A program made the position numbers and the translations under genes. From positions 218,723 to 282,722 of the forward strand of contig NC_011661.1 in NCBI RefSeq assembly GCF_000021645.1: 64,000 nucleotides of DNA, in the 5' to 3' direction. This document shows positions 41,187 through 63,033 of the stretch, in pieces (position 1 is the stretch's first letter; each line of letters starts with the position of its first letter). The notes beneath the pieces were generated by a model. The model ran no database searches. It had not been told where the DNA came from and worked only from the letters and a program-made list of their open reading frames with translations. Source of the stretch: Dictyoglomus turgidum DSM 6724. GTDB lineage: Bacteria; Dictyoglomota; Dictyoglomia; Dictyoglomales; Dictyoglomaceae.

Positions 41187-43616
41187 ATGAAAAACGTTTT
41201 CCTAATAGTATTAATAATCATATTAACATTTTCCATATCCTTTTCACAAAGCCTCAATATAAATGGCAACACCTATATAGATACGTATTTTTCCATATTT
41301 TTTGGGAACCCTTATCTTTTATCTCTTAATCCAAACATTCTCAAAGGAATATACATCTACCAAAATTCCCAGTTTTATTTAAATTACCATATACCTAAAT
41401 TTACCCTTGACTTCTCTTATATTTCCCATCCCACGGACATCATGGAACTTTTCTTAAATTTTTCTGAGTTTAAAATTAGATTTAGTAATCTCCTTAACCT
41501 AAACTTTTCCCCACTCTCCCTATACAATAAAAAGGTTAACGGTATTTATATCACATATGAAAATAATACTCTTTCTCTTAAAGGAATAATATCAAAAATA
41601 GAGGGATTAAAAAAATATAAAAACTTTTATGGAAATGGTACCCCAGGACCTTACTTTCTTGAGGATACCTTTCTAACACCCTTTACAGAAAAAGTATATT
41701 TAAATGGGAATCTTTTGCAAAGGGATTTTGATTACGCTATAGATTACAAGCAAAGAATAATATCATTTAGCTTTGTAATTACAAAGAATGATTATATAGT
41801 CATAGAATATGAATCCCCCTCCAAAGAAATTTATAACCTTTCAGGCTTCTCCTTAAACTTAAGTGCTCTAAATCTTTCTTACCTTAATTTAGAGAAATCT
41901 ATAGAGAACACCCAAAACAGTTTTTGGGAAGTAGGTATAAATATGGAAAAAGACGAAAATAACCTTTTAAATCTCCGAAGATCTTTTTTCTTTGTTAACA
42001 ACATGTATTCTGGGTATGCAGACTACTTAAAATTTGCTCTGAGTAAAGAACTTTTCACTGCATCCTTGGAATACCTGTATGCAGAAAAAGGATACATATA
42101 TTTAACAGAAGTTTTAGGGAACAACAATCTCTTATCTGATTCAAAATATATACATTTTAGCTTGAGTTTACTTCCCTTTTCTTCTTTAAGCTATATTTAT
42201 GACTTTGAAAACAAAATTACCAAAGGAGAAGAGTTCTCAAAACAAAATCATACCCTTATATTGAATACCAACAATTCAAAAGCTGAATTCTCTTATAGCT
42301 ATGAAAAAAGTAAAGAAGAGATTGGAATAACTTACACTTACTATCCTTTATCTTTAAATAGTATGTACAAAAAGACGATTTCTAACTCTTATGTCTCGTC
42401 AACTTATAGTATGTCTCTATCACCCTCTTTAGATTTTCTAAATTCTTACTTTTTAGTTTATTCTAACGATTATTATTCGGATAAAGCTTATTTTAGAGAC
42501 TTCTCCTATACCATAGGAATAAGCATAAAAAGTAAAAGCTTTGAATTAAATATGGGAGAAAAATTTAATAAAAAAGAAAATTTAAATCCAGATACTCCCA
42601 TTTATTTAGCTCAAATCTTTATGACCGACGGAGTAAATTTCTCTTTCCAACTATCTTACCCTACTATTGATATAAATTCAGTTAGTGTCTATATAAATAA
42701 TATTCTTGTTAAAAATAATAGCACTTTTACATATCTTTTTCCTGACGGCTCTTATAAGACTTATACTTTAAATCTATCTATATATGAAAATAGAGTAGAT
42801 CTATTCTTTGTAGACAATAATGGAATTCATCCTCCCCCTCCAGACCTTTCCTTAACCATCTACTACTTAACGATTATTCCTCAAGAAAGCTATTATCAAA
42901 GCCATGATTTACAATTAAAGTTTACAAGTCCAAAGATAAGTTCCTCCGCTTCTCTTCAGAGGATAGAACAGGATTTCATCTATGACTATCTTATTAATTT
43001 CTCAGCCCGAGGAACAATTCTTAAAAACCTATGGATAGATCTCACGAATATTTATAAAATATATGAAAAAAACAACAAGCTTTTACTTAAATCTGTATAT
43101 TTCTTTTTACCTTCATATATTTATTTAGATTTAAACATAAATAGCTTCCCCTATGCAAAAACTATTCTTTTCAAAATTAACCCAGTTCTGACTTTTGGTG
43201 AAGATTTTATAAATTTCTCTTTAGAACATCTTGAAAACACTTATTATGAAGCATACCTTAAATACCTGTCTCTAAACTTAGAATTTAAAAAGAAATTCTC
43301 TCAAAATGAATTTAAAGCACATTTTTACAAAACCTGGAGGACTTATACTTCATCTGTAGATACTGGCACCTATTTACTAAATTCTGAATCTATAAACCTC
43401 TTAAGAGAATTAAATAAATCAAAATATGAGTTATTTATAATCCACGAAAAATATAATACCAACTTAGAAAAATATACTGTAATTTTTACTTATATTCCCA
43501 ACAAATCTGAAAAATTTACCAACAATTGCCTTTATATAAAAGGAATATACAGTGCATTAGAGCAAAACTATTCTTTTATCCTTCAAATAGGAGGTAATAT
43601 TTCTGTGAATTTTTGA
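41187..43616 (+). CDS. Outer-membrane-like beta-barrel/surface protein, paralog 2
   Basis: 809 residues with the same plan as the preceding gene: signal peptide (FLIVLIIILTFSISFS), beta-rich body, the module VYLNGNLLQRDFDYAIDY at ~residue 170, INNILVKNNSTFTYLFPDGS at ~residue 510, and C-terminal IGGNISVNF. Matching landmarks in the same order and similar length show a tandem duplication, but the sequences are well diverged. It is transcribed from its own leaderless promoter, so the two could be expressed under different conditions. Confidence 0.7.
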   Translation: MKNVFLIVLIIILTFSISFSQSLNINGNTYIDTYFSIFFGNPYLLSLNPNILKGIYIYQNSQFYLNYHIPKFTLDFSYISHPTDIMELFLNFSEFKIRFSNLLNLNFSPLSLYNKKVNGIYITYENNTLSLKGIISKIEGLKKYKNFYGNGTPGPYFLEDTFLTPFTEKVYLNGNLLQRDFDYAIDYKQRIISFSFVITKNDYIVIEYESPSKEIYNLSGFSLNLSALNLSYLNLEKSIENTQNSFWEVGINMEKDENNLLNLRRSFFFVNNMYSGYADYLKFALSKELFTASLEYLYAEKGYIYLTEVLGNNNLLSDSKYIHFSLSLLPFSSLSYIYDFENKITKGEEFSKQNHTLILNTNNSKAEFSYSYEKSKEEIGITYTYYPLSLNSMYKKTISNSYVSSTYSMSLSPSLDFLNSYFLVYSNDYYSDKAYFRDFSYTIGISIKSKSFELNMGEKFNKKENLNPDTPIYLAQIFMTDGVNFSFQLSYPTIDINSVSVYINNILVKNNSTFTYLFPDGSYKTYTLNLSIYENRVDLFFVDNNGIHPPPPDLSLTIYYLTIIPQESYYQSHDLQLKFTSPKISSSASLQRIEQDFIYDYLINFSARGTILKNLWIDLTNIYKIYEKNNKLLLKSVYFFLPSYIYLDLNINSFPYAKTILFKINPVLTFGEDFINFSLEHLENTYYEAYLKYLSLNLEFKKKFSQNEFKAHFYKTWRTYTSSVDTGTYLLNSESINLLRELNKSKYELFIIHEKYNTNLEKYTVIFTYIPNKSEKFTNNCLYIKGIYSALEQNYSFILQIGGNISVNF

Positions 43617-43695: not shown

Positions 43696-45582
43696 TTGGT
43701 GAGAAACAAATTCTACATAACAACTCCTATATATTATTCAAATTCTGAACCTCATATAGGTACTGTGTATACCACTATTGTTGCTGATACCTTCGCCCGT
43801 TTTTATAGACTTAAGGATTATGACGTGTTTTTCCTTACGGGACTTGATGAACATGGACAAAAATTAGCAAGAACAGCTCAAGAAAGAGGCTATACGCCTC
43901 AAGAATACGTAGATCTGATGGCACAAAAGTTCATAGAAACTTGGGAAAAAATAGGCATAACCAATGATGATTTTATAAGAACCACAGAAAAAAGACATGA
44001 AGAGGTAGTACAAAAAGTATTCCAAAAACTATATGATAAAGGATATCTATATAAGGGAAGCTATGCAGGCTGGTACTGTACCCCATGTGAAACCTTCTGG
44101 CAAAAAGAAGAGCTCCATGATGGGAATTGCCCTGCTTGTGGAAGACCTGTGGAGTGGCTTGAGGAAGAAACTTATTATTTCAAACTTTCTGCCTTTGCAG
44201 AGCCTCTCCTGAAATATATTGAGGAACATCCTGAATTTGTATACCCTGAGACCAGAAGAAATGAAGTTATAAGCTTTATAAAGAGTGGATTAAAGGATAT
44301 AAGCGCTACAAGAACTACTGTAAAATGGGGGATTCCTGTCCCCTTTGATCCGAAGCACACAGTATATGTATGGTTTGATGCTTTAGTAAACTACATAAGT
44401 GCATTGGGATACTTGACAGATGACGACTCTAAATTTAAAAGATATTGGCCTGCAGACGTGCACTTAATTGGAAAGGATATCCTTAGATTCCATGCCATCA
44501 TATGGCCTGCCATCCTTATGGCATTAAATATTCCTTTGCCAAAGACTGTTCTTGCCCATGGATTCTGGACTATAAAAGGTGGTAAGATATCTAAATCCAA
44601 AGGAAATAGAGTAGATCCTCATGAATTGATAAATCTTTATGGAGTAGACGCCCTTAGGTACTTCCTTTTAAGAGAAGTTCCTTTAGGACTTGATGGAGAG
44701 TACAGTGATGAAGCCTTTCATAGAAGATATCATTCGGATCTTGCCAATGATTTAGGAAACTTATTAAATAGAGTTCTTACAGTGGCAGAAAAATATACTG
44801 AGGGAAAAGTTCCAGAGCCAAAAGAATTCCAAGAGGAAGACAAATTCCTCCTTCAAAAAGGAGATGACATGGCAAACAAGGTAGAAGAAGCAATGGCAAA
44901 TTTCAATCCTGCTAATGCCTTAACCTATATCTGGGAAGTCGTACAAGAGGCAAATAGATACATAGATCAACAAGCACCTTGGAACTTAGCCTCTTCTGGA
45001 AACAAAGATAGATTAAATACAGTTATTTATACCCTATTAGAGGCTTTAAGAAAAATTTCTATTATGCTTTATGCTTTTATGCCAAACATTGCAGAAGAAA
45101 TCCAAAGACAACTTGGATATAAAGATGTGCAATTTGCTTGGGACTTAATAAAAGATGTTAAAATACCTGTGGGACAAAAATTAAATAAAGGAAAGATTTT
45201 ATTCCCAAGAGTGGAAAGAAAGGAAGAAAAAGAAGTGGAAGAAAAGAAAGAGGAGCAAAAAATAAGTATTGATGAGTTTAAAAAGATAGACCTTAGAATA
45301 GCAAAGGTAATTTCTGCGAGAAGAGTGGAAAATAGCGACAAGTTATTACTTCTTGAAATTGATCTTGGAGAGGAAAAGAGACAAATTGTGGCTGGAATAG
45401 CAGAATATTATAAACCCGAGGAGCTTATAGGCAAAGAAATAGTAGTAGTTTATAACTTACAACCTGCAAAGATAAGAGGCTATGAATCTCAAGGTATGCT
45501 CCTTGCTGCCAAAGATAGCAAAGGAAGACTTGCCATTTTAACTCCTGAAAAAGAGGTGGATCCTGGATCGAAGGTGAGCTAA
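43696..45582 (+). CDS. metG: Methionyl-tRNA synthetase
   Basis: About 628 residues. The class I signatures are both clear: HIGT-type HIGH box (NSEPHIGTVYTT) and KISKSKGNR as KMSKS. A zinc knuckle with four Cys (CTPCE...CPACG) lies in the connective domain. The C-terminal ~110 residues are a tRNA-binding OB-fold domain (FKKIDLRIAKVISARRVENS, GYESQGMLLAA) after a charged Glu/Lys linker. Start: AAAGGAG (43682-43688) fits TTG 43696 or GTG 43699 (MRNKFYITT), whereas the ATG at 43678 lies upstream of the ribosome-binding site. dnaX begins directly after the stop. Confidence 0.95.
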   Translation: MVRNKFYITTPIYYSNSEPHIGTVYTTIVADTFARFYRLKDYDVFFLTGLDEHGQKLARTAQERGYTPQEYVDLMAQKFIETWEKIGITNDDFIRTTEKRHEEVVQKVFQKLYDKGYLYKGSYAGWYCTPCETFWQKEELHDGNCPACGRPVEWLEEETYYFKLSAFAEPLLKYIEEHPEFVYPETRRNEVISFIKSGLKDISATRTTVKWGIPVPFDPKHTVYVWFDALVNYISALGYLTDDDSKFKRYWPADVHLIGKDILRFHAIIWPAILMALNIPLPKTVLAHGFWTIKGGKISKSKGNRVDPHELINLYGVDALRYFLLREVPLGLDGEYSDEAFHRRYHSDLANDLGNLLNRVLTVAEKYTEGKVPEPKEFQEEDKFLLQKGDDMANKVEEAMANFNPANALTYIWEVVQEANRYIDQQAPWNLASSGNKDRLNTVIYTLLEALRKISIMLYAFMPNIAEEIQRQLGYKDVQFAWDLIKDVKIPVGQKLNKGKILFPRVERKEEKEVEEKKEEQKISIDEFKKIDLRIAKVISARRVENSDKLLLLEIDLGEEKRQIVAGIAEYYKPEELIGKEIVVVYNLQPAKIRGYESQGMLLAAKDSKGRLAILTPEKEVDPGSKVS

Positions 45583-47139
45583 ATGCCTGTAGCCCTTTAT
45601 AGAAAATGGAGACCACAAACCTTCGAAGAAGTTGTAGGACAAGAGCACATAGTAATTACCCTACAAAATAGTCTTAAATATGCCCATATTGGTCATGCAT
45701 ACCTTTTTGCAGGACCAAGAGGTACAGGAAAAACTACCGTTGCAAGAATTCTTGCAAAAGCTCTAAATTGTGCTAAAGGTCCCACTCCTACTCCCTGCCT
45801 AAAATGTGAGTCTTGTGTTGAAATTGCAGAAGGAAGAAGCATTGATGTTATTGAGATAGATGCTGCATCTAATCGTGGTATAGATGAAATAAGAGATATT
45901 AGGGAAAAAGCAAGACTTCTTCCTGTAAGAGATAGATACAAAGTTTATATTATAGATGAAGTCCATATGTTAACTAACGAAGCCTTTAATGCCCTTTTAA
46001 AAATCCTTGAAGAACCACCAGAGCATGTAATATTTATTATGGCAACTACAGAACCTCAAAAGGTACCCTTAACTATTCTATCAAGATGTCAAAGATTTGA
46101 TTTTAGAAGACTTACAAGGGATGAGATTATAAAACAGCTTGCAAAAATTGCAGAAAGCGAAGGAGCAAAAATCTCTGAAGGTGCTCTCAGGCTTATTGCC
46201 ATACAGTCTCAGGGATCTATGAGAGATGCCATAAGTCTTTTAGAGCAACTATTAGTTTACTCTGATCAAGAAATCACCGAAGACTTCGCAAGAAATCTTC
46301 TTGGGCTTCCTACCTATGAATTTACCTATAAATTTGCAAAAGCTCTGGGAGAATATAATATCCTTGAAGGATATAGCCTCCTTCAACAGGTATTTCAGAT
46401 GGGCAAAAACCCACAACAATTTGCAAGAGAACTTTTGCAACACTTTAGAAATTTACTTTTATTAAAAGCTGACGAAAGAATAGGAAATCTCCTTTCTATT
46501 ACCCAAGAAGAGTTTGAAGAACTTATGGAAGAAACAAAACTCTACACTATGCAAAGACTTCAAGACATTATTGATCAACTTCTTATCCTTGAAAACAGGC
46601 TTAGAGATCTCACTAACGCCCCATTAGTTATGGAGATGATTCTTCTGCCCTTATTCATGAAAGAGGAAACAGTAGAAGCTCAGATAATTCAAACCCCGAC
46701 TCAGCCTACTACTCCTATAAAAACTGAAGAAAAAGAAGAAAAAGAGAAGAGAGGAGAAAGTACCCCAGGAACACTAAATATAGATGAGCTTCTAGATAAA
46801 TGGCCTCAACTCCTAGCAAAGATTAAAAAGAGAAAAATTTCCTTAGAAGCCATGTTAAGAGAGGCAAGAATCATAGAGATAGATCAGGAAGGAAAGTTAG
46901 TTCTTGGACTTCCAAAAAATTTCTCCTTCCTAAAAGAAAGACTTGAAGAAAAACCCAATAGAGCATTAATCGAAGAAGAATTTAAAAAACTCTATGGTGT
47001 TCCTATACAGGTAAAGTTTATAACCGTTGAAGAAAATCCTATTTTGAAAAATCCTGAAAAAGAGGATCCCAAAAAAGAAGAGAAGAAATTGTCCACGGAC
47101 GATGTCAAAAATATGTTTAAGGGTAAACTAATAGAATAG
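45583..47139 (+). CDS. dnaX: DNA polymerase III subunit gamma/tau
   Basis: 518 residues. The N-terminus VALYRKWRPQTFEEVVGQEHI is diagnostic. Walker A is FAGPRGTGKTT, the zinc module CLKCESCVEI is complete, Walker B is VYIIDEVHML and sensor-1 lies in IFIMATTEPQKV. A Glu/Lys-rich linker at ~365-395 precedes a tau-type C-terminal domain. No obvious A-run slippage site was identified, so whether a short gamma form is made is unclear. It is the second gene of metG-dnaX-ybaB-recR and is transcribed head-on to replication if the origin is at 58.2 kb. Confidence 0.95.
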   Translation: MPVALYRKWRPQTFEEVVGQEHIVITLQNSLKYAHIGHAYLFAGPRGTGKTTVARILAKALNCAKGPTPTPCLKCESCVEIAEGRSIDVIEIDAASNRGIDEIRDIREKARLLPVRDRYKVYIIDEVHMLTNEAFNALLKILEEPPEHVIFIMATTEPQKVPLTILSRCQRFDFRRLTRDEIIKQLAKIAESEGAKISEGALRLIAIQSQGSMRDAISLLEQLLVYSDQEITEDFARNLLGLPTYEFTYKFAKALGEYNILEGYSLLQQVFQMGKNPQQFARELLQHFRNLLLLKADERIGNLLSITQEEFEELMEETKLYTMQRLQDIIDQLLILENRLRDLTNAPLVMEMILLPLFMKEETVEAQIIQTPTQPTTPIKTEEKEEKEKRGESTPGTLNIDELLDKWPQLLAKIKKRKISLEAMLREARIIEIDQEGKLVLGLPKNFSFLKERLEEKPNRALIEEEFKKLYGVPIQVKFITVEENPILKNPEKEDPKKEEKKLSTDDVKNMFKGKLIE

Positions 47140-47149
47140 GAGGGATAAT

Positions 47150-47464
47150 GTGAAAAATCCATTTGAGGCGATGAAACAACTTAAGAAGCTTCAGGAGAAA
47201 ATGGCAAAAATAGAGGAAGAATTAGAACAAACCCTCGTAGAAGGAACCGCAGGAGGAGGAGTTGTGAAGATAGTTATGACAGCCAAAGAAGAGGTAAAGG
47301 AGGTAAAAATAGATCCTGAGGTGGTAAACAAGGATGAGGTAGACATATTAGAAGATCTTATTGCAGCTGCACTAAGAGACGCCCTTACAAAGGCAAAAGA
47401 AAAGTCAGCTGAGAAGATGGGAAGTCTCACCGATGGGCTTCCCTTACCACCCGGACTCTTTTAA
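47150..47464 (+). CDS. YbaB/EbfC nucleoid-associated protein
   Basis: 104 residues from a GTG at 47150 after GGAGGG. The family pattern is clear: MKQLKKLQEKMAKIEEELEQ, then VKIVMTAKEEV, VKIDPEVV and a helix ending in the Pro/Gly-rich GLPLPPGLF. These dimeric DNA-binding proteins are nearly always encoded between dnaX and recR, as here (10-base and 3-base gaps). Confidence 0.93.
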   Translation: MKNPFEAMKQLKKLQEKMAKIEEELEQTLVEGTAGGGVVKIVMTAKEEVKEVKIDPEVVNKDEVDILEDLIAAALRDALTKAKEKSAEKMGSLTDGLPLPPGLF

Positions 47465-47467
47465 CAG

Positions 47468-48070
47468 ATGGCAGAAAAAAGTATTTTTGAGAAGCTCATT
47501 GATGAGCTAACAAAACTTCCTGGAATTGGGCCCAAATTAGCCCAAAGAATTGCTTTTTACCTCTTGAAACAACCACAGGAAAGTGTGGAAGTTCTTGCAA
47601 ACACCATCTTAAAGGTCAAAAAAGAGATTAAATATTGTTCTATTTGCTTTAACCTTACTGAAAAAGATCCCTGTGAAATCTGTACGAACCCTGAAAGGGA
47701 TAAATCCATAATTTGTGTAGTTGCAGAGCCAAAAGATCTTTGGGCAATAGAAAAAACCTCTAAGTTTCATGGAGTTTACCATGTCCTCGGAGGATTAATT
47801 TCTCCTTTAGATGGAGTATTTCCAGAGGATCTTAGAATAAAAGAGCTTATGGAAAGGGTTAAAAAAGGAAATATAAAAGAAGTTATTCTTGCCACCGACT
47901 CTACTCCAGAAGGAGAAGCAACTGCTATGTATATTGCAAGACTTCTTATGGAATATCCAGTAAAAGTTACCCGTCTTGCCCATGGACTTCCTGCAGGTAC
48001 AGAACTTGATTTTGCCGATGAAATGACCCTTATTCATGCCTTAGAAGGAAGAAAGGAGTTAATATTATAA
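47468..48070 (+). CDS. recR: Recombination mediator protein RecR
   Basis: 200 residues, normal length. A helix-hairpin-helix (LTKLPGIGPKLAQRIAFYLL), a four-Cys zinc finger (CSICFNLTEKDPCEIC) and a Toprim domain (ICVVAEPKDLWAIE, ATDSTPEGEATAMYI) occur in the standard order, with the conserved GTELDFADEMTL Walker-B-like end. It works with RecF/RecO in loading RecA onto gaps. Confidence 0.95.
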   Translation: MAEKSIFEKLIDELTKLPGIGPKLAQRIAFYLLKQPQESVEVLANTILKVKKEIKYCSICFNLTEKDPCEICTNPERDKSIICVVAEPKDLWAIEKTSKFHGVYHVLGGLISPLDGVFPEDLRIKELMERVKKGNIKEVILATDSTPEGEATAMYIARLLMEYPVKVTRLAHGLPAGTELDFADEMTLIHALEGRKELIL

Positions 48071-48095
48071 TAAATATAAAGAAGGAGGTTATAGT

Positions 48096-48668
48096 ATGAA
48101 AGATATGCTGGAAATTCGCTGGCATGCAAGGGCAGGGCAAGGAGCAAAGACTGCTTCTTATCTCCTTGCTGAAACAGCCATGGAGGCTGGAAAGTATATT
48201 CAAGCCTTTCCGGAATATGGCCCAGAAAGAACAGGAGCACCTATGAAAGCATATACCAGGATCAGCGACAAACCTATAAGGATCCACAGCCAAATATATA
48301 ATCCCGATGTTGTAGTAGTACTTGACAAAACTCTCATCGGTAAAGTGAATATTTTAGAAGGACTTCCATCGGATGGAATACTCATAGTAAACACTACCCA
48401 ATCTCCAAAAGAGATAAGAGAACAGCTTGGAATCTCGGACAGAAAAATCTATACTGTGGATGCCACCGGAATAGCTCTTGAAACCATTGGAAGACCTATC
48501 CCAAATACTCCCATGCTGGGAGCCTTGATTCGTGTAGTCCCAATAATAAGTTTAGATGAGGTACTTAACCAGTTTAGAAAGAAATTTGAAGGAAGGTTTA
48601 GACCCGAAGTTGTGGAGGGTAACCTTCAAGCTATAAAAAGAGCTTACGAGGAGGTAAAGGGAGAATGA
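48096..48668 (+). CDS. porC: 2-oxoacid:ferredoxin oxidoreductase, gamma subunit
   Basis: 190 residues. WHARAGQGAKTASYLLAETAM is the gamma-subunit hallmark (G-x-G-Q-G). FPEYGPERTGAPMKAYTRIS is the second conserved motif. AAGGAGG precedes the ATG. Subunit order gamma-delta-alpha-beta is that of four-subunit pyruvate (or 2-oxoisovalerate) ferredoxin oxidoreductases in Thermotoga and archaea. The operon makes acetyl-CoA, CO2 and reduced ferredoxin from the 2-oxoacid and CoA. Confidence 0.92.
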   Translation: MKDMLEIRWHARAGQGAKTASYLLAETAMEAGKYIQAFPEYGPERTGAPMKAYTRISDKPIRIHSQIYNPDVVVVLDKTLIGKVNILEGLPSDGILIVNTTQSPKEIREQLGISDRKIYTVDATGIALETIGRPIPNTPMLGALIRVVPIISLDEVLNQFRKKFEGRFRPEVVEGNLQAIKRAYEEVKGE

Positions 48669-48943
48669 AATTACCAGGATGGAAAGAATTAGTAAATATA
48701 GGTCCTATTTTACCTGCACAGACTTCTAAAGAGTATAAGACGGGGGACTGGAGAACCTTTAGGCCTGAAATTGACTATAACAAATGTACTACTTGTATGT
48801 TTTGCTGGCTCTTCTGTCCTGATTCTGCAGTAAAATTTGATGGTCAAAAGGTTTATATTGACTATGATTACTGCAAAGGTTGTGGTGTTTGCGCAGCAGA
48901 ATGTCCTGTCAAAGCAATAACCATGAAAGAAGAAGAAAAATAA
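48665..48943 (+). CDS. porD: 2-oxoacid:ferredoxin oxidoreductase, delta subunit (2x[4Fe-4S])
   Basis: 92 residues with two ferredoxin cluster motifs: CTTCMFCWLFCP and CKGCGVCAAECP, both C-x2-C-x2-C-x3-C-P. It passes electrons from the catalytic beta/alpha subunits to ferredoxin. It overlaps porC by 4 bases. Confidence 0.93.
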   Translation: MKLPGWKELVNIGPILPAQTSKEYKTGDWRTFRPEIDYNKCTTCMFCWLFCPDSAVKFDGQKVYIDYDYCKGCGVCAAECPVKAITMKEEEK

Positions 48944-48958
48944 AGGAGGGAAGAAAAA

Positions 48959-50146
48959 ATGAAGACTCAAGTCAAAAGAATCGCTATTGAGGGTAATGAG
49001 GCAGCAGCCTTAGCTTTTAAGCAGGTAAATCCTGATGTGGTTGCTGCCTATCCTATAACCCCTTCCACCGAGGTGGTACAAAAATTCTCTGAATATGTGG
49101 CAAACGGAGAAGTAGATACCGAATTTGTGCCTGTAGAAAGTGAGCACAGTGCCATGAGTGCATGTATTGGTGCCGCTGCTGCAGGTGCAAGGGTAATGAC
49201 TTCTACTGCATCCCAAGGACTTGCTCTCATGTGGGAGATGCTTTACATTGCATCTGCTTTAAGACTTCCCATTGTAATGACTGTGGCAAACAGAGCCCTC
49301 TCTGCCCCAATAAATATCCATGGAGATCATAGTGATGCTATGGGAGCAAGAGATTCTGGTTGGATACAAATTTTCTCTGAGAACGTGCAAGAAATATATG
49401 ACAATATCTTTCAAGCAGTTAAGATTGCAGAACATCCCGACGTAAGACTCCCTGTAATGGTAGGGTATGATGGTTTTATTACTAGCCACTCCGAAGAGAT
49501 GATAGAAGTTCTTGACGATGAAGTAGTAAGAAACTTTATAGGAAAATATAAGCCCCAATATACCTTGCTTGATGTGGATAATCCTATAGCGGTAGGTCCC
49601 CTCGCTCTAACGGACTCTTACTTTGAGTTCAAAGTAGCCCAAGCCTATGCCCTTGAAAACTCTCTTCCCATTATAAAGCATGTAGGAAAAGAATATGGGG
49701 ATATTACAGGAAGATACTATGATGTAATAGAGAAGTATAAAACCGAGGGTGCAGAATATATAATCGTGGCTATGAGCTCTACTGTAGGAACCGCAAGAGA
49801 AGTAGTAGATGCTCTAAGAGAAAAGGGACTTCCTGTGGGACTTTTGAAGATCAGAGTATTCAGACCATTCCCCACCGAGGATATTATAAATGCTCTTAAA
49901 GATGCAAAAGTAATAGGAATTCTTGACAGAAGTATGGTTCCTGGATCCTTTGGTGGTCCTCTTTACCATGAGATAACTTCTGCCTTCTACCATTATGATA
50001 AAAGACCAATTGCTCAAGCATATGTATATGGTCTTGGAGGCAGAGATATCACTACTCAACACATAGAGAAAGTCTTTGAAGAGCTCATGGATATAGGTAA
50101 GAAAGGAAAACCAAATCCTCTCACCTATATTGGAGTAAGAGAATAG
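48959..50146 (+). CDS. porA: 2-oxoacid:ferredoxin oxidoreductase, alpha subunit
   Basis: 395 residues. AYPITPSTEVVQKFSEYVANG is the pyrimidine-binding domain signature with the conserved Y-P-I-T-P-S, and VPVESEHSAMSACIGAAAAG follows with the E-x-E-H motif. The transketolase-C-like domain lies after residue 250. Pyruvate is the more likely substrate, but the subfamily cannot be proved by eye. It is preceded by AAAGGAGG. Confidence 0.9.
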   Translation: MKTQVKRIAIEGNEAAALAFKQVNPDVVAAYPITPSTEVVQKFSEYVANGEVDTEFVPVESEHSAMSACIGAAAAGARVMTSTASQGLALMWEMLYIASALRLPIVMTVANRALSAPINIHGDHSDAMGARDSGWIQIFSENVQEIYDNIFQAVKIAEHPDVRLPVMVGYDGFITSHSEEMIEVLDDEVVRNFIGKYKPQYTLLDVDNPIAVGPLALTDSYFEFKVAQAYALENSLPIIKHVGKEYGDITGRYYDVIEKYKTEGAEYIIVAMSSTVGTAREVVDALREKGLPVGLLKIRVFRPFPTEDIINALKDAKVIGILDRSMVPGSFGGPLYHEITSAFYHYDKRPIAQAYVYGLGGRDITTQHIEKVFEELMDIGKKGKPNPLTYIGVRE

Positions 50147-50158
50147 GAGGTGCTAAAA

Positions 50159-51094
50159 ATGGCAATTAACTTAAGAGAATTAGCGTTAAAAGAGGAAAGA
50201 TTAGTTAGTGGACATAGATTGTGTGCAGGATGTGGAGCAAGTATTGTTGTAAGAATGGTTCTAAACGCCATAGATGAACCAGTAGTAGTGGCCAATGCTA
50301 CAGGATGCCTTGAAGTTGCCACCACCATATTTCCTTTTAACTCTTGGAATGTGCCATGGATCCATTCTGCCTTTGAAAATGCAGCAGCAACCATAGCAGG
50401 AGTGGAAGCCGCATATAGAGCTTTAAAGAAAAAGGGAGAAATTGATAGAGAGATAAGATTTATAAGCTTTTCTGGGGATGGTGGTACCTACGATATTGGA
50501 CTTCAGGCCCTCTCAGGAGCAGTAGAAAGAGGACATAGGGCAGTCTTTATTTGCTATAACAATGAGGCATATATGAATACGGGAATTCAAAGATCAAGCG
50601 CAACTCCAAGAGGTGCCTTTACTACTACCTCTCCAGCAGGAAAGGTAGTTCCTGGAAAGCCTCAAAGGAGAAAGAATTTAACAGAAATGATGGTAGCAAA
50701 TGGAGCAAGATATGTAGCTCAAGCATCACCAAGCCACTGGAGAGATCTCATGGAAAAGGTTAGAAAAGCAGTAAATACTGATGGACCTGCCTTTCTAAAT
50801 ATATACTCTACCTGTCCAAGGGGCTGGAGAACACCCGATAACTCAGCTATAAACATTGCAAGGCTTGCAGTAGAGACCGGTGTATGGCCCCTCTACGAAG
50901 TGGAAGATGGAAAGTATAAGATAAACTATAAACCTCCAAAGGGATTTAAACCAGTAGAGGAGTTCCTAAAAGTTCAAGGAAGATTTGCTCACCTTCTTAA
51001 GCCAGAAAATACCCATATATTAGAAGAAATCAAAAAAGATATAGAAGCTGAATGGAAAAGACTTCTTAGTATGGAGGAAGCCACAAACAAATAA
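50159..51094 (+). CDS. porB: 2-oxoacid:ferredoxin oxidoreductase, beta subunit (TPP-binding)
   Basis: 311 residues from the ATG at 50159 (GGAGG at 50146-50150). The cluster-binding cysteines appear in HRLCAGCGAS and GCLEVAT. The thiamine diphosphate motif is SGDGGTYDIGLQALSGAVERG followed by YNNEAYMNTGIQRSSATP. A further Cys (YSTCPRGW) completes the usual set for this subunit. It is the last gene of the operon, and an intrinsic terminator lies 18 bases beyond its stop. Confidence 0.93.
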   Translation: MAINLRELALKEERLVSGHRLCAGCGASIVVRMVLNAIDEPVVVANATGCLEVATTIFPFNSWNVPWIHSAFENAAATIAGVEAAYRALKKKGEIDREIRFISFSGDGGTYDIGLQALSGAVERGHRAVFICYNNEAYMNTGIQRSSATPRGAFTTTSPAGKVVPGKPQRRKNLTEMMVANGARYVAQASPSHWRDLMEKVRKAVNTDGPAFLNIYSTCPRGWRTPDNSAINIARLAVETGVWPLYEVEDGKYKINYKPPKGFKPVEEFLKVQGRFAHLLKPENTHILEEIKKDIEAEWKRLLSMEEATNK

Positions 51095-51147: not shown

Positions 51148-51963
51148 ATGAATAAGAATAGCTATAAACTTGGAGTTCATCTTTTTAGAGGTGGAAGATC
51201 TATACTCGAAGATATAAAGCTTCTTCGAATAAATACTGCACAGCTTTTTTCAGGAAGTCCCAGAAGCTATAGACCTACCAATGAGAAACTCCCAGTTTTT
51301 CCCTTCAACTCTGTTTTCATTCATGCTCCTTATGTGGTAAATATAGCATCTCCTGACGAAAAAGTATTCAACTTGTCTATTAAAAAAGTAATAGAGGAAT
51401 TGAAACTTGCAGAAGAACTAGAATGGGAAGGATTGATAATTCATCCTGGAAGTAGCAAAAAGATGGGAAAGGAAGTGGCAAAGAGAAATTTTTTTAAAGC
51501 TCTTGAAAAAATTCTTGAAGAAGACATAAAGGCAAAACTTATAGTAGAAAATAGTGCAGGGGAAGGAGATGGATGGGGTTCAACCTTAGAGGACTTCTAC
51601 TCCATACATGAGGAATTTCCATCGATATACTTTTGTATTGATACCTGTCATCTTTTTGCTGCAGGATATAATTTAAAAAATCCAAGGGTATGTAAAGAAA
51701 CTTTTTATTCTTTTTTCGAAAGAATCCCTGTGGAAAAGTTAGTATTAATTCATATAAATGACTCTCATTTTCCCCTTGGATCTCACAGAGACCAACACGC
51801 CCACATAGGTAAGGGGGCTATCGGGATAGGAGGATTTAAAAATCTATTAAGTATTCCTGAAATAAGAAAAATTCCTCTTATCCTTGAAACCCCCAAAGAC
51901 AGTCCTATGGCAGACCTCTATAACCTACATACCATAAGAAAGATCTTAGAAAATTCTGATTAA
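51148..51963 (+). CDS. nfo: Endonuclease IV-like AP endonuclease
   Basis: About 271 residues from the ATG at 51148; the in-frame ATG at 51100 would place the por terminator inside the coding sequence. The family's zinc-site motifs are recognisable: [72 protein letters not shown] and a final LILETPKD. The enzyme cleaves abasic sites in DNA repair with three metal ions. No ribosome-binding site is possible within the terminator T-run. Its tail overlaps the opposing esterase gene by 4 bases. Confidence 0.9.
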
Positions 51964-56586: not shown

Positions 56587-57060
56587 ATGTTAGTTGTGAT
56601 CCTAATGGGCTCAAAGGGAGATTTGGATCATGCTAAAAAAATAGCCCATACCTTGGAAAAATTTGAAGTTCCATATGTGATGAGAGTAGCTTCTGCCCAC
56701 AAAATTCCTCTAAAAGTATTAGAAATTATAAAAGAATATGAGGAAAAAGACGTTGTATATATCACAATAGCAGGAAGAAGTAATGCCCTTTCAGGTTTTA
56801 CTGATGCTAACACAACAAAACCAGTTATTGCTTGTCCTCCCTATAGCGAGAGATTTGGAGGAGTAGATATATTTTCTACATTAAGGATGCCATCAGGAGT
56901 CGCTCCTTTAACCATTTTAGAACCAGAAGAAGCTGCACTTGCTGCTGTAAAGATATTGGCTATGAAATATGAAAATTTAAAAGAAAAAATCAAAAAATAT
57001 CATGAAGAAAAAAGAAAAGAGATAGAAAAGGCTGACGAAGAGGTGAGAAGTAATGGGTAG
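56587..57060 (+). CDS. purE: AIR carboxylase, class II-type PurE
   Basis: 157 residues. The N-terminus VVILMGSKGDLDHAKKIAHTL and VASAHKIP are PurE motifs. The CO2/AIR-site loop reads IAGRSNALSGFTDANTTKP and then PVIACPP, where class I enzymes have AGGAAHLPGM. AGRSN is the class II sequence seen in animal PAICS. Class II enzymes carboxylate AIR directly with CO2, so no purK is needed, and none is present next to it. The C-terminal ~30 residues form a charged helix. It overlaps purC by 8 bases. Confidence 0.88.
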   Translation: MLVVILMGSKGDLDHAKKIAHTLEKFEVPYVMRVASAHKIPLKVLEIIKEYEEKDVVYITIAGRSNALSGFTDANTTKPVIACPPYSERFGGVDIFSTLRMPSGVAPLTILEPEEAALAAVKILAMKYENLKEKIKKYHEEKRKEIEKADEEVRSNG

Positions 57061-58069
57061 TGTAAAAGACCTAATAATAATAGAAAGTCCTACAGAAAAA
57101 TCTCTTGGAAGAGGAAGATTTGTATTTTCTGATAGATATTCTGTATTTGATTATGGAGAAATGCCTGATCATATAGATGATAAAGGAAAAGCCATATGTA
57201 TAGCTACGGCTTATTTCTTTGAAAAATTAGAAAACTTAGGAATTAAAACCCACTACGTAGGGCTTGTAGAAGATGATAAAATTAAAACCCTTTATGAATT
57301 AAAAAAACCCACAAATGTTATGGAATTCAAAATGGTAAGAGTAATAAAGCCAGATCTTAAGGATAACATTTATGACTATTCTGTATTTAAAAAAGAAAAA
57401 TCAAATTTCCTAATACCTTTAGAAGTTATTTATAGAAATTCCCTTCCCGAAGGATCCTCCATATTTAAGAGGCTAAAGGAAGGAAGTTTAACTCTCCAGG
57501 ACATAGGTCTTGAAGAGATGCCAGAGCCGGGACAAAAATTAGAAAAGCCTATTGTGGATTTCTCTACAAAATTAGAAGTAAATGATAGATATTTATCTCG
57601 AAAAGAAGCTTTAGAAATTAGCGGACTTTATGAGTCAGAATTTGAAAAGCTAATAAATCTCACCTTATTCATAGACGATCTAATCACAGAGGAAACCCGA
57701 AAAATAAACCTAAACAATGAGGACGGAAAAGTAGAATATGCTCTTGACTTGGAACGTAACATAATGCTCGTAGATGCTCTTGGAACTCTTGATGAATGTA
57801 GATTTACCTTTGAAGGAATACCGGTAAGCAAAGAAATTGCAAGAATCTATTACCGAAAAACCGATTGGTATAAAGAAATAGAAGAGGCAAAAAAGAAAGA
57901 TCGTTTTCATTGGAAAGACTATGTAAGCTCTCCTCCTCAACTTCCAAAGCAAATAAGAGAGTTGATATCCTTAATTTATAAAGCATATGCCAATGAACTT
58001 ACAGGAATAGAATGGTTTGAAACTTCCCCTCTGAAAGATCTACTCTACAGAGTAAAGGAATTAATTTAA
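57053..58069 (+). CDS. purC: Phosphoribosylaminoimidazole-succinocarboxamide (SAICAR) synthase
   Basis: 338 residues, longer than the ~240-residue enterobacterial enzyme and like archaeal/long forms. IIIESPTEKSLGRGRFVFSDRYSVFDYGEMPD corresponds to the nucleotide-binding entry (in two pieces: IIIESPTEKSLGRGRF and SDRYSVFDYGEMP). RVIKPD, PLEVIYRNSLPEGSS and LVDALGTLDECRF are the later conserved blocks. It follows purE in the next pathway step. A GC-rich hairpin follows the stop. Confidence 0.9.
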   Translation: MGSVKDLIIIESPTEKSLGRGRFVFSDRYSVFDYGEMPDHIDDKGKAICIATAYFFEKLENLGIKTHYVGLVEDDKIKTLYELKKPTNVMEFKMVRVIKPDLKDNIYDYSVFKKEKSNFLIPLEVIYRNSLPEGSSIFKRLKEGSLTLQDIGLEEMPEPGQKLEKPIVDFSTKLEVNDRYLSRKEALEISGLYESEFEKLINLTLFIDDLITEETRKINLNNEDGKVEYALDLERNIMLVDALGTLDECRFTFEGIPVSKEIARIYYRKTDWYKEIEEAKKKDRFHWKDYVSSPPQLPKQIRELISLIYKAYANELTGIEWFETSPLKDLLYRVKELI

Positions 58070-58186: not shown

Positions 58187-58444
58187 TTATCCACAATTGT
58201 GGATAACTTTGTGGACAGGTTGTGGATAACTCTGTGGATAACTTTAGCAAATTGTGGATAACTTTGTGAATAAGTTGTGAATTGTGGATAATGTGGAAAA
58301 GTTTGGAAAACTTATCCACAATTATAAACCTTTTAAAAAGTAATTTTTCTCCTTTTATCCACAATGTCCACAGTCCCTACTACTACAACAAGTTTTTGTT
58401 TTTATAAGCATATATTTGTAGTTTTTATAGAAAACTGTGGATAA
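58187..58444. other. Replication origin: DnaA-box cluster
   Basis: Nine perfect copies of the DnaA box TTATCCACA lie within 258 bases. Plus orientation: 58187, 58312 and 58355. Minus orientation (TGTGGATAA): 58198, 58221, 58233, 58253, 58283 and 58436. Near matches lie at 58210 (TGTGGACAG) and 58265 (TGTGAATAA). The boxes at 58187/58198 face each other. An AT-rich stretch follows at 58500-58676. Plus-strand composition flips from C-rich to G-rich here. No dnaA or dnaN gene is within the window; the flanking genes are purC and an mgtC-like gene. Confidence 0.93.
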
Positions 58445-58458
58445 TTTTTGAAGATGAA

Positions 58459-58478
58459 GAGCCCCTTGGCAGGGGCTC
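58459..58478. repeat. Perfect 8-bp hairpin beside the origin
   Basis: GAGCCCCT (58459-58466) and AGGGGCTC (58471-58478) with a 4-base loop lie 15 bases after the last DnaA box, at the junction with the AT-rich stretch. No T-run follows on the plus strand. It may be a terminator-like barrier or an element of the origin. Confidence 0.5.
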
Positions 58479-58499
58479 CCTTTGAGAAAAGAAATTCTG

Positions 58500-58676
58500 A
58501 CTGGGATGGAGTTTATTCTTTGATTAAAATTATATATTTTATTAATTAATTTTGCAATACTTTTCGTAAGAAATTTAATGACCTCAAATAAAAACGTGTT
58601 AGCTAAAACTAAATTCTTTTTATATTTATTTTTTGAAGTGTAAAAATAATACTCTCAGAAAATTGAATAAAAATTT
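58500..58676. other. AT-rich stretch, candidate DNA-unwinding element
   Basis: About 175 bases with very few G/C pairs (for example ATTATATATTTTATTAATTAA around 58529-58549), directly beside the DnaA-box cluster. No gene is seen. The position and composition fit the duplex-unwinding element of a bacterial origin. Confidence 0.6.
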
Positions 58677-58685
58677 TGATATAAT
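58677..58685 (+). promoter_or_regulatory. Extended -10 promoter of the mgtC-like gene, leaderless
   Basis: TGATATAAT ends 7 bases before the ATG at 58693, with no Shine-Dalgarno sequence. Confidence 0.65.
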
Positions 58686-58692
58686 CTAAACT

Positions 58693-59340
58693 ATGATAAA
58701 TGTATGGGATGTATTATTAAGATTTATTCTATCTACATTATTCTCTGGAGTTATAGGCTGGGAGAGGGAAAAAGAGGAAAAACCAGCTGGGCTTAGAACT
58801 CATATATTGGTTTCCTTAGGTTCTACTCTCTTTATGATTGTATCCGCCTATGCCTTTCCAGGAAATGGTGATCCTGGAAGGATAGCAGCTCAAGTTGTGA
58901 CAGGTATAGGCTTTATAGGAGCGGGTACAATTTTAAGAACAGGATTTACTGTAAAGGGGTTGACTACGGCAGCAAGTATATGGGCAGTCTCTGGAATTGG
59001 ACTTTCGGTGGGAGCTGGACTATATTTTCCAGCTTTTATAGCTACTATTTTTATTATAGTAGTACTTGTTTTAGCAACAAAACTTGAAAAGATTTTTTTA
59101 GGTACTCATCAAGATGTGGGATTAAATTTGATAATAGAAGATAGGCCTGGGGCTATAGGAGAGATAGGGACTCTTCTTGGAGAATTAAATGTGGACATAA
59201 AACAGATAGAACTTGGAAATTCCTGGGAAGGAAAAATTTCTTTAAAAATATTAGTTAGGATTCCTCAAAAGTTGACAAAAAATGAATTACTTTTAAGGCT
59301 TTCAGATCTTCCTTCTGTTGTTGATGTGGAATTGATTTAG
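58693..59340 (+). CDS. MgtC/SapB-family membrane protein with C-terminal ACT-like domain
   Basis: 215 residues. The MgtC/SapB signature is clear: FSGVIGWEREKEEKPAGLRTH, then QVVTGIGFIGAGTI and VKGLTTAASIWAVSGIGL, with four membrane helices. The C-terminal ~75 residues (LNLIIEDRPGAIGEIGTLLG) are an ACT-like domain. Members are linked to Mg2+ homeostasis or growth at low Mg2+. First rightward gene after the origin. Confidence 0.9.
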   Translation: MINVWDVLLRFILSTLFSGVIGWEREKEEKPAGLRTHILVSLGSTLFMIVSAYAFPGNGDPGRIAAQVVTGIGFIGAGTILRTGFTVKGLTTAASIWAVSGIGLSVGAGLYFPAFIATIFIIVVLVLATKLEKIFLGTHQDVGLNLIIEDRPGAIGEIGTLLGELNVDIKQIELGNSWEGKISLKILVRIPQKLTKNELLLRLSDLPSVVDVELI

Positions 59341-59361
59341 AAATTTTAAAGGAGGGAGGTT

Positions 59362-60099
59362 ATGGAAACTGATAAATATATTTCAAGATTAGTTGAGGAA
59401 AATGTTTATCATATTTCTGATTATAGGGATGATAGCTTTTATTTAATAATTGGAGAAAATAAAGCAATACTTTTTGATACAGGAATGGGGACAGGAGATC
59501 TTAAGAAGTACATAGGGAGTCTTACTAATAAAGATGTAGAAGTGGTGATTTCTCATGCTCATTGGGATCATATAATGCAGGTGAACCAGTTTGAGAAGGT
59601 GTATATGAATCATAAAGATATAGAGATTATAAAAATTTTTAAGATGGATATTAAATATGACCATTTTTTAGATATTAAAGATGGGGATATTTTGGATATA
59701 GGGGGAAGGAAATTAGAAGTTATAGAGGTACCAGGACATACTCCTGGTTCTATTGTTCTTTTGGATAACAAGTATAAACTTCTATTTAGTGGTGATGCTA
59801 TAGGAGCTGGACATACATGGATGCAACTTCCAGGATGCCTTCCGTTAAGTAGTTATTTGGAGAGTCTGCACAAACTTGCAAAGAGAAGTAATGAATTTGA
59901 GAAAATCTATAACGGCCATTTGGCTCAAAGAAATGGTATTCCTGTGCCAAGGGAATATTTATTTGATCTTATAAAAGCTGTAGAAAAAGTGATCTCTGGT
60001 GAACTTATGGGAGAACCTTATCCTTATGGTAATTTTGGAGGATTATATGTGAATTATGGTATGGCTACGCTTGTTTATAATCCTCAAAACATTAAATAA
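59362..60099 (+). CDS. Metallo-beta-lactamase-fold hydrolase
   Basis: 245 residues. The metal motif is intact, VVISHAHWDHIMQV (H-x-H-x-D-H), with GHTPGSIVLLD and LFSGDAIGAGH supplying the further ligands and NGHLAQ the last His. Substrate not evident; glyoxalase-II-like, lactonase-like or other hydrolases share this pattern. GGAGGGAGG precedes the ATG. Cytoplasmic, no signal peptide. Confidence 0.85.
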   Translation: METDKYISRLVEENVYHISDYRDDSFYLIIGENKAILFDTGMGTGDLKKYIGSLTNKDVEVVISHAHWDHIMQVNQFEKVYMNHKDIEIIKIFKMDIKYDHFLDIKDGDILDIGGRKLEVIEVPGHTPGSIVLLDNKYKLLFSGDAIGAGHTWMQLPGCLPLSSYLESLHKLAKRSNEFEKIYNGHLAQRNGIPVPREYLFDLIKAVEKVISGELMGEPYPYGNFGGLYVNYGMATLVYNPQNIK

Positions 60100-62280: not shown

Positions 62281-63033
62281 ATGGAAGGAAGATTTGAATC
62301 AAATTGGGAAGCAGTTTTCGAACCCGAAGATTATCTCTATTTTTATGAAGATATGTTAACCGATGAGCAAACCCAGATTGAAGTGGATTTTATTAGAAGA
62401 GAACTTGACTTGAAGGATCCTAAAAAAATTCTTGATATGGCATGTGGTTATGGAAGACATGCAAATAGGCTTGCTCTTTATGGACATGAAGTGGTGGGAG
62501 TAGATATAAGTGAAAAGTTTTTAGAAATGGCAATGAAAGAGGCAGAGAAGTTAAATGTTAATGTGAGATATGTTTTAAAAGATATTAGAGAAATAGATTT
62601 TGAAGAGGAGTTTGATGTAGTTATATCTATGTTCACGTCCTTTGGGTATTATGAAGACGAGGATAACTTGAAGATATTAAAAAATGTTGCTAAAGCCCTA
62701 AAAAGGGGTGGTAAATTTTTATTAGACTTAAGCAATAGAGATTTTATATTAAGAAATTTTCTACCTTATGTAGTTATTGAGAGAGAGGGTAATTATATGA
62801 TTGATTTTAATATTGTAGATATAACTGAGGGGCGTATATATAACAAGAGGGTAGTAATAAGAGATGGGGTAAAAAAGGAAAAGCCTTTTTTTATAAGGCT
62901 CTATGCTCCTACCGAGATAAAGTTTATTCTTGAAAGTTTAGGATTGAAGGTTATAAAGTTTTTTGGAGGATATGATAGTAGCCCATTAAGTATTTACTCA
63001 AGAAGAATGATTATAATTTCCGAAAAGGTATAA
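62281..63033 (+). CDS. SAM-dependent class I methyltransferase
   Basis: 250 residues. Motif I is ILDMACGYGRHANRLA and motif II VVGVDISEKFLEMA, followed by DVVISMFTSFGYY and LKRGGKFLLDLSNRDF. These mark a Rossmann methyltransferase acting on a small molecule or protein; the substrate is not evident. The gene is 10 bases upstream of a TPR lipoprotein-like gene in a new transcription unit. Confidence 0.85.
   Translation: MEGRFESNWEAVFEPEDYLYFYEDMLTDEQTQIEVDFIRRELDLKDPKKILDMACGYGRHANRLALYGHEVVGVDISEKFLEMAMKEAEKLNVNVRYVLKDIREIDFEEEFDVVISMFTSFGYYEDEDNLKILKNVAKALKRGGKFLLDLSNRDFILRNFLPYVVIEREGNYMIDFNIVDITEGRIYNKRVVIRDGVKKEKPFFIRLYAPTEIKFILESLGLKVIKFFGGYDSSPLSIYSRRMIIISEKV

Follow-up and report, generated by a model that had tools for sequence, protein, structure and literature searches.

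The window analysed here, a stretch of 64,000 nucleotides, covers bases 218,723-282,722 of the Dictyoglomus turgidum genome, which forms one contig of 1,855,560 bp. It contains the plus-strand genes purE (AIR carboxylase, 56587-57060; Pfam PF00731, E=6e-44), purC (SAICAR synthetase, 57053-58069; PF01259, E=6e-23) and mgtC (MgtC family with a C-terminal ACT domain, 58693-59340; PF02308, E=2e-41). The 623 bp between purC and mgtC contain an array of DnaA boxes, described in an initial sequence-only reading as a replication origin flanked by purE-purC and mgtC and lacking dnaA and dnaN as neighbours. The Pfam assignments agree with these flanks, and both dnaA and dnaN are located elsewhere. No published Dictyoglomus origin was found in the open literature, and DoriC may already list a prediction. 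The closed-genome paper of D. turgidum DSM 6724 gives Dtur_0001 as DnaA and draws a GC-skew ring, while a term search returned no mention of a replication origin (PMC5167688).

The array occupies 58187-58444 and is composed of nine perfect and four near-consensus DnaA boxes at conserved positions. Perfect copies of TTATCCACA start at 58187+, 58198-, 58221-, 58233-, 58253-, 58283-, 58312+, 58355+ and 58436-, so that the earlier count of nine within 258 bp, six on the minus and three on the plus strand, stands at every coordinate. Near-consensus boxes at 58210-, 58265-, 58292- and 58364+ also belong to the array, bringing the numbering to 13. Box 1 (58187-58195) is conserved with at most one mismatch in the five genomes compared, while boxes 2 (58198-58206), 4 (58221-58229), 5 (58233-58241) and 6 (58253-58261) are perfect in all five. 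Box 3 (58210-58218) is weak, reading CTGTCCACA with two mismatches, and appears as a one-mismatch box in the three sister-genus genomes. Box 7 (58265-58273) reads TTATTCACA, which fits TTATNCACA, and box 8 (58283-58291) is perfect and specific to the genus Dictyoglomus. Box 9 (58292-58300; TTTTCCACA) is perfect in the sister genus, as is box 12 (58364-58372; ATGTCCACA, two mismatches), which stands in tandem with box 11 (58355-58363), the upstream box of a putative basal unwinding module. Box 10 (58312-58320) lies to their left, and box 13 (58436-58444) faces an AT-rich stretch from the opposite side.

Such a concentration is far above chance. Shuffling gives an expectation of 0.57 perfect boxes across the entire window, and at the genome-wide density (57 perfect boxes) the Poisson chance of nine per 258 bp is approximately 3e-25. 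Elsewhere in the genome almost all perfect boxes are single and no second cluster occurs, which makes the intergenic array the only one of its kind. The only other close pair of exact boxes, 67 bp apart, is found at G000:C1:1132534-1132609, within the right arm and in the direction of the terminus.

Box 12 is followed by a GC-rich spacer, GTCC (58373-58376; GCCC or GCTC in the relatives), and then by CTACTACTACAACAA on the top strand (58377-58391), whose lower strand reads 3'-GATGATGAT-5' and thereby provides three candidate DnaA-trios, within a full series of 3'-GAT-GAT-GAT-GTT-GTT-5'. The five in-phase CWA triplets of this stretch were equalled in none of 5000 shuffles. A basal unwinding system (BUS) has been defined by a minimum of three trios no more than 16 bp from a DnaA box, with the nearest trio mostly 3'-GAT-5', a peak in spacer length at 10-13 bp and a common occurrence of tandem boxes (PMC8287927). 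In D. turgidum, box 11 is followed by a 13-bp gap, which includes the weak box 12, and then by the trio run, a layout in agreement with the published descriptions (PMC8287927, PMC10316083). The tandem boxes of a BUS are co-oriented, and the upstream member tends to match the consensus better; in D. turgidum the pair shares one orientation, the box at 58355 being perfect and that at 58364 carrying its two mismatches. The sister genus has its perfect copy at box 12, and box 11 of G005 has one mismatch. The trio runs of D. thermophilum and G004 open with TTA, not CTA, which counts against a reading as trios. When tandem boxes followed by TACTAC were searched for in the named genomes, a set from which Dictyoglomus records may be absent, a single match was returned, in a Burkholderiaceae MAG (L097, 3133-3162); this is compatible with chance, or the contig is possibly mis-binned.

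From the trios to box 13 extends a putative DNA unwinding element of about 80% A+T (58392-58435), which ranks within the least stable 6% when the window is scored in 50-bp stretches and adjoins the boxes directly. The array is bounded on its right by a GC-rich inverted repeat, GAGCCCC-TTGGCA-GGGGCTC (58459-58478), of which a similar copy was seen in D. thermophilum only. The sequence-only reading had the boxes followed by AT-rich DNA. Very AT-rich DNA is indeed present at 58510-58680, and stability in the region is lowest at 58510-58579, but the AT-rich DNA relevant for opening is probably the stretch inside the array; 58510-58680 lies on the far side of the inverted repeat, and the sister genus does not conserve it. 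Inward of box 13, further in-phase CWA triplets may form a mirror-image module (e.g. CTACAATAACAA in G005); as their shuffle p ranges from about 0.003 to 0.13 per genome and the sequences are non-independent, this module is offered as a suggestion. That two facing unwinding modules, a clear one at box 12 and a degenerate one at box 13, flank the AT-rich stretch is unlikely; if true, such a layout could allow a separate DnaA filament to engage each strand and the helicases to be loaded symmetrically.

The array was compared across five genomes of two genera, namely D. turgidum, D. thermophilum and the sister-genus genomes G004, G005 and G006; the drafts G001 and G003 have no contig with the array and are neutral. 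In D. thermophilum (1,959,987 bp) it lies at 1644-1904 of the record, again between purC and mgtC and with the same change of skew sign across it, while dnaA is near 1,663.6 kb. The zero points of the two records differ, that of D. turgidum being set at dnaA and that of D. thermophilum (L086, G002:C1:1-12000) just ahead of purE, 47 bp before the gene and about 1.6 kb before the array. Given this starting point, the depositors of D. thermophilum had probably already placed their zero near the origin.

In G004, G005 and G006 the array was recovered by DNA similarity (E 4e-43 to 3e-33), although none of fourteen neighbouring window proteins has a counterpart near it and purC and mgtC are on other contigs. 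Its right neighbour in G005 and G006 is an M1-type peptidase; on the left stands a short-chain dehydrogenase in G006, with a homologous ORF in G005, and in G004 the neighbours are a YdjC-like protein and a methyltransferase. The geometry of the boxes is nonetheless retained near-exactly: the 13 positions are spaced by 11, 12, 11, 12, 20, 12, 18, 9, 20, 43 and 9 bp and then by 72-84 bp in all five genomes, the sole deviation before the final interval being 1 bp at the 43-bp interval of G004. This list places box 3 at 58210, one base to the right of the position scored in the five-genome alignment. Invariant columns make up 85% of the boxes and 74% of the spacer and trios (14 of 19), compared with 27% of the linkers and 13% of the sequence outside.

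The initiator gene is remote from the array. The solitary dnaA (G000:C1:60-1406) is the first gene of the deposited sequence, about 277 kb away, and dnaN (1562565-1562918) lies at 1,562.6 kb, some 294 kb from dnaA across the zero of the record; the usual arrangement of an origin next to dnaA and dnaN is therefore absent in D. turgidum, and the earlier placement of the origin away from dnaA agrees with these positions. The exact boxes nearest to dnaA are 7.2 and 8.0 kb from it, with no cluster there. The genome encodes one copy of the DnaA box-binding domain (PF08299, E=4e-33), in a full-length DnaA whose best match among solved structures is B. subtilis DnaA (8btg, E=2e-162); the cryo-EM paper on the BUS names this entry (PMC10721633). 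For ParB the genome has one perfect site, TGTTTCACGTGAAACA, at G000:C1:203132-203147, 74 kb from the array and 203 kb from dnaA, and no further exact copies.

Strand composition was assessed by counting G and C at third codon positions, read on the plus strand, for plus and minus genes separately, because gene direction confounds the raw skew. A two-breakpoint model was fitted to 605 ORFs spanning 610 kb, in sampled stretches amounting to about one third of the genome. Its best origin is genome 276,789-277,412, the purC-mgtC intergene; the next-best gene boundary loses 7.3 log-likelihood units against it, and a breakpoint at dnaA loses 635. The opposite switch, expected of a terminus, falls near 1.227 Mb and divides the chromosome into arms some 950 and 906 kb long, so that the lagging-to-leading change at the array has its counterpart. 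In stretches sampled around the chromosome, third-position skew rises from -0.08 on the left arm to +0.31 on the right arm in plus genes, and from -0.36 to +0.09 in minus genes. At the boundary itself, purC, the last gene of the left replichore, has a GC3 skew of -0.12 and mgtC, the first of the right, of +0.52. Starting at about 1.25 Mb, the sign remains constant past dnaA and up to 277 kb. Genes read in the direction of replication account for 65-74% of coding bases. No match to an E. coli-like motif was found for a dif site. Among the relatives, G004 switches its third-position skew at the array despite its other neighbours; in G006 the array intergene trails the best breakpoint by no more than 0.4 log units, and a second breakpoint 13 kb away fits equally well.

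Raw skew behaves differently. Under coarse sampling of the genome its cumulative curve has a shallow minimum near 184 kb, and the local minimum within the window is at 43584 (genome 262,306). The sequence-only reading had expected a cumulative minimum near 58.3 kb; the strand-corrected GC3 curve does reach its minimum at 58048 (genome 276,770), whereas the raw minimum is 15 kb off, displaced by gene direction and by a block of plus-strand genes at 44001-51000 whose G+C is raised (up to 41%) and whose raw skew is positive although they lie on the lagging side. Raw cumulative skew was consequently rejected as a sole test for the origin, as it misplaces it by about 15 kb. That reading had also based the switch on three sampled lines, whose counts are exact (5 G and 14 C at 51841-51900, 15 and 2 at 59341-59400, 14 and 5 at 62941-63000), but three lines cannot carry a claim on skew. 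They do not all lie in plus-strand genes either, since 59341-59400 is only partly coding, mgtC ending at 59340 and the next ORF starting at 59362. The raw skew is irregular, and the switch becomes clear only with gene direction corrected for, when it is very strong.

Taken together, the unique box cluster, the strand-corrected breakpoint in the same intergene, the opposite switch roughly halfway round the chromosome and the conservation of the array in two genera uphold the origin reading: the purC-mgtC intergene is almost certainly oriC, the single bidirectional, DnaA-type origin of the D. turgidum chromosome. The array is unique, its spacing is conserved and a mutational strand switch coincides with it; by analogy with known origins, DnaA would bind and the helicase be loaded there. 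Opening probably proceeds through the trio (BUS) mechanism. DnaA made from the gene 277 kb away would bind the boxes, and a DnaA-ATP filament would grow from tandem boxes 11 and 12 (58355-58372) across GTCC onto the lower-strand trios (58377-58391). This filament would then open the AT-rich 58392-58435, where the helicase would be loaded and from which two forks would depart, with boxes 1-10 acting as a DnaA-collecting, regulatory arm. If the trio mechanism operates, opening should depend on an intact CTACTACTA.

Intergenic clusters of high-affinity DnaA boxes are also characteristic of datA and other DnaA-titration loci, and the array resembles them in being such a cluster. It could be a titrating or regulatory locus, with the true origin beside dnaA at position 1, since many boxes can also titrate, the deposited sequence starts with dnaA and oriC adjoins dnaA in most bacteria (PMC10225481). 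Yet no box cluster exists near dnaA, a skew break there is disfavoured by the 635 log units given above, and the third-position skew passes through dnaA without changing sign; datA loci, moreover, are not at a replichore boundary and lack an unwinding module, whereas the array bears one of that type. This makes a titration locus very improbable. Still harder to credit is a recent inversion or a bias in gene direction as the source of the skew break, with the box cluster there by coincidence. The raw skew is irregular nearby, with blocks of opposite sign at 44-51 kb, but plus and minus genes both shift their third-position skew in the same way at the same intergene, and the shift recurs in D. 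thermophilum and, next to other neighbours, in G004.

A further possibility accepts oriC at the array and moves the opening to 58510-58680, where single strands would be engaged by loop-back and not on the trios. The low stability of 58510-58579 speaks for it, as does the recruitment of single strands through bending at E. coli-type origins (PMC10316083). It is nevertheless an unlikely arrangement, as this DNA is beyond the inverted repeat and lacks conservation in the sister genus; G005 has a gene there (L100:1389-4199) whose end is no more than about 15 bp from the array. The trio module and its spacing, by contrast, are conserved. Opening on the trios remains the preferred account.

Among characterised origins, that of B. 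subtilis offers the closest parallel to the proposed module, with tandem co-oriented boxes (6 and 7 in its BUS), a short GC-rich spacer, trios of the TAG type in one of the strands and AT-rich DNA after them, and the DnaA proteins are closely related. Unlike the B. subtilis oriC, which is split around dnaA, the D. turgidum origin has its dnaA 277 kb off and dnaN elsewhere, and its later triplets are 3'-GTT-5', not NAN. The E. coli oriC, between mnmG/gidA and mioC, is likewise a DnaA-box origin apart from dnaA with unrelated flanking genes, but it relies on weak boxes, two opposed arms and bending by IHF, whereas the D. turgidum boxes are mostly perfect. Thermotoga maritima is also a thermophile, and its tma-oriC combines mixed box orientation with an unwinding element whose three TAG repeats are required (PMC10316083); it has five boxes against about thirteen in D. 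turgidum, and its essential repeats lie farther from the box (eTrio), while those of D. turgidum come directly after the spacer. In a distant relative (G016; L098, G016:C1:1-6000, 2463-2700), dnaA and dnaN enclose ten perfect boxes in mixed orientation, and a TACTACTACTA run immediately ahead of dnaN is another candidate trio module. Its origin is at the usual place and that of D. turgidum is not, which argues that the Dictyoglomota origin differs in location and not in kind. Separation from dnaA is itself not new, as E. coli demonstrates; in general terms, origins away from the gene have been described in the literature (PMC10225481).

The D. turgidum origin is an ordinary one of the DnaA type, and its informative feature is a geometry that is conserved amid changed neighbours. 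For a thermophilic phylum of its own, the origin is placed to within a few hundred bases, and it provides a clear case in which the internal geometry of the boxes has been preserved while the initiator gene is elsewhere and the neighbours have changed. It also provides, in a lineage remote from the Bacillus and Helicobacter models, a strong candidate for a DnaA-trio module; with a thermostable DnaA, the claimed antiquity of the trio mechanism becomes directly testable.
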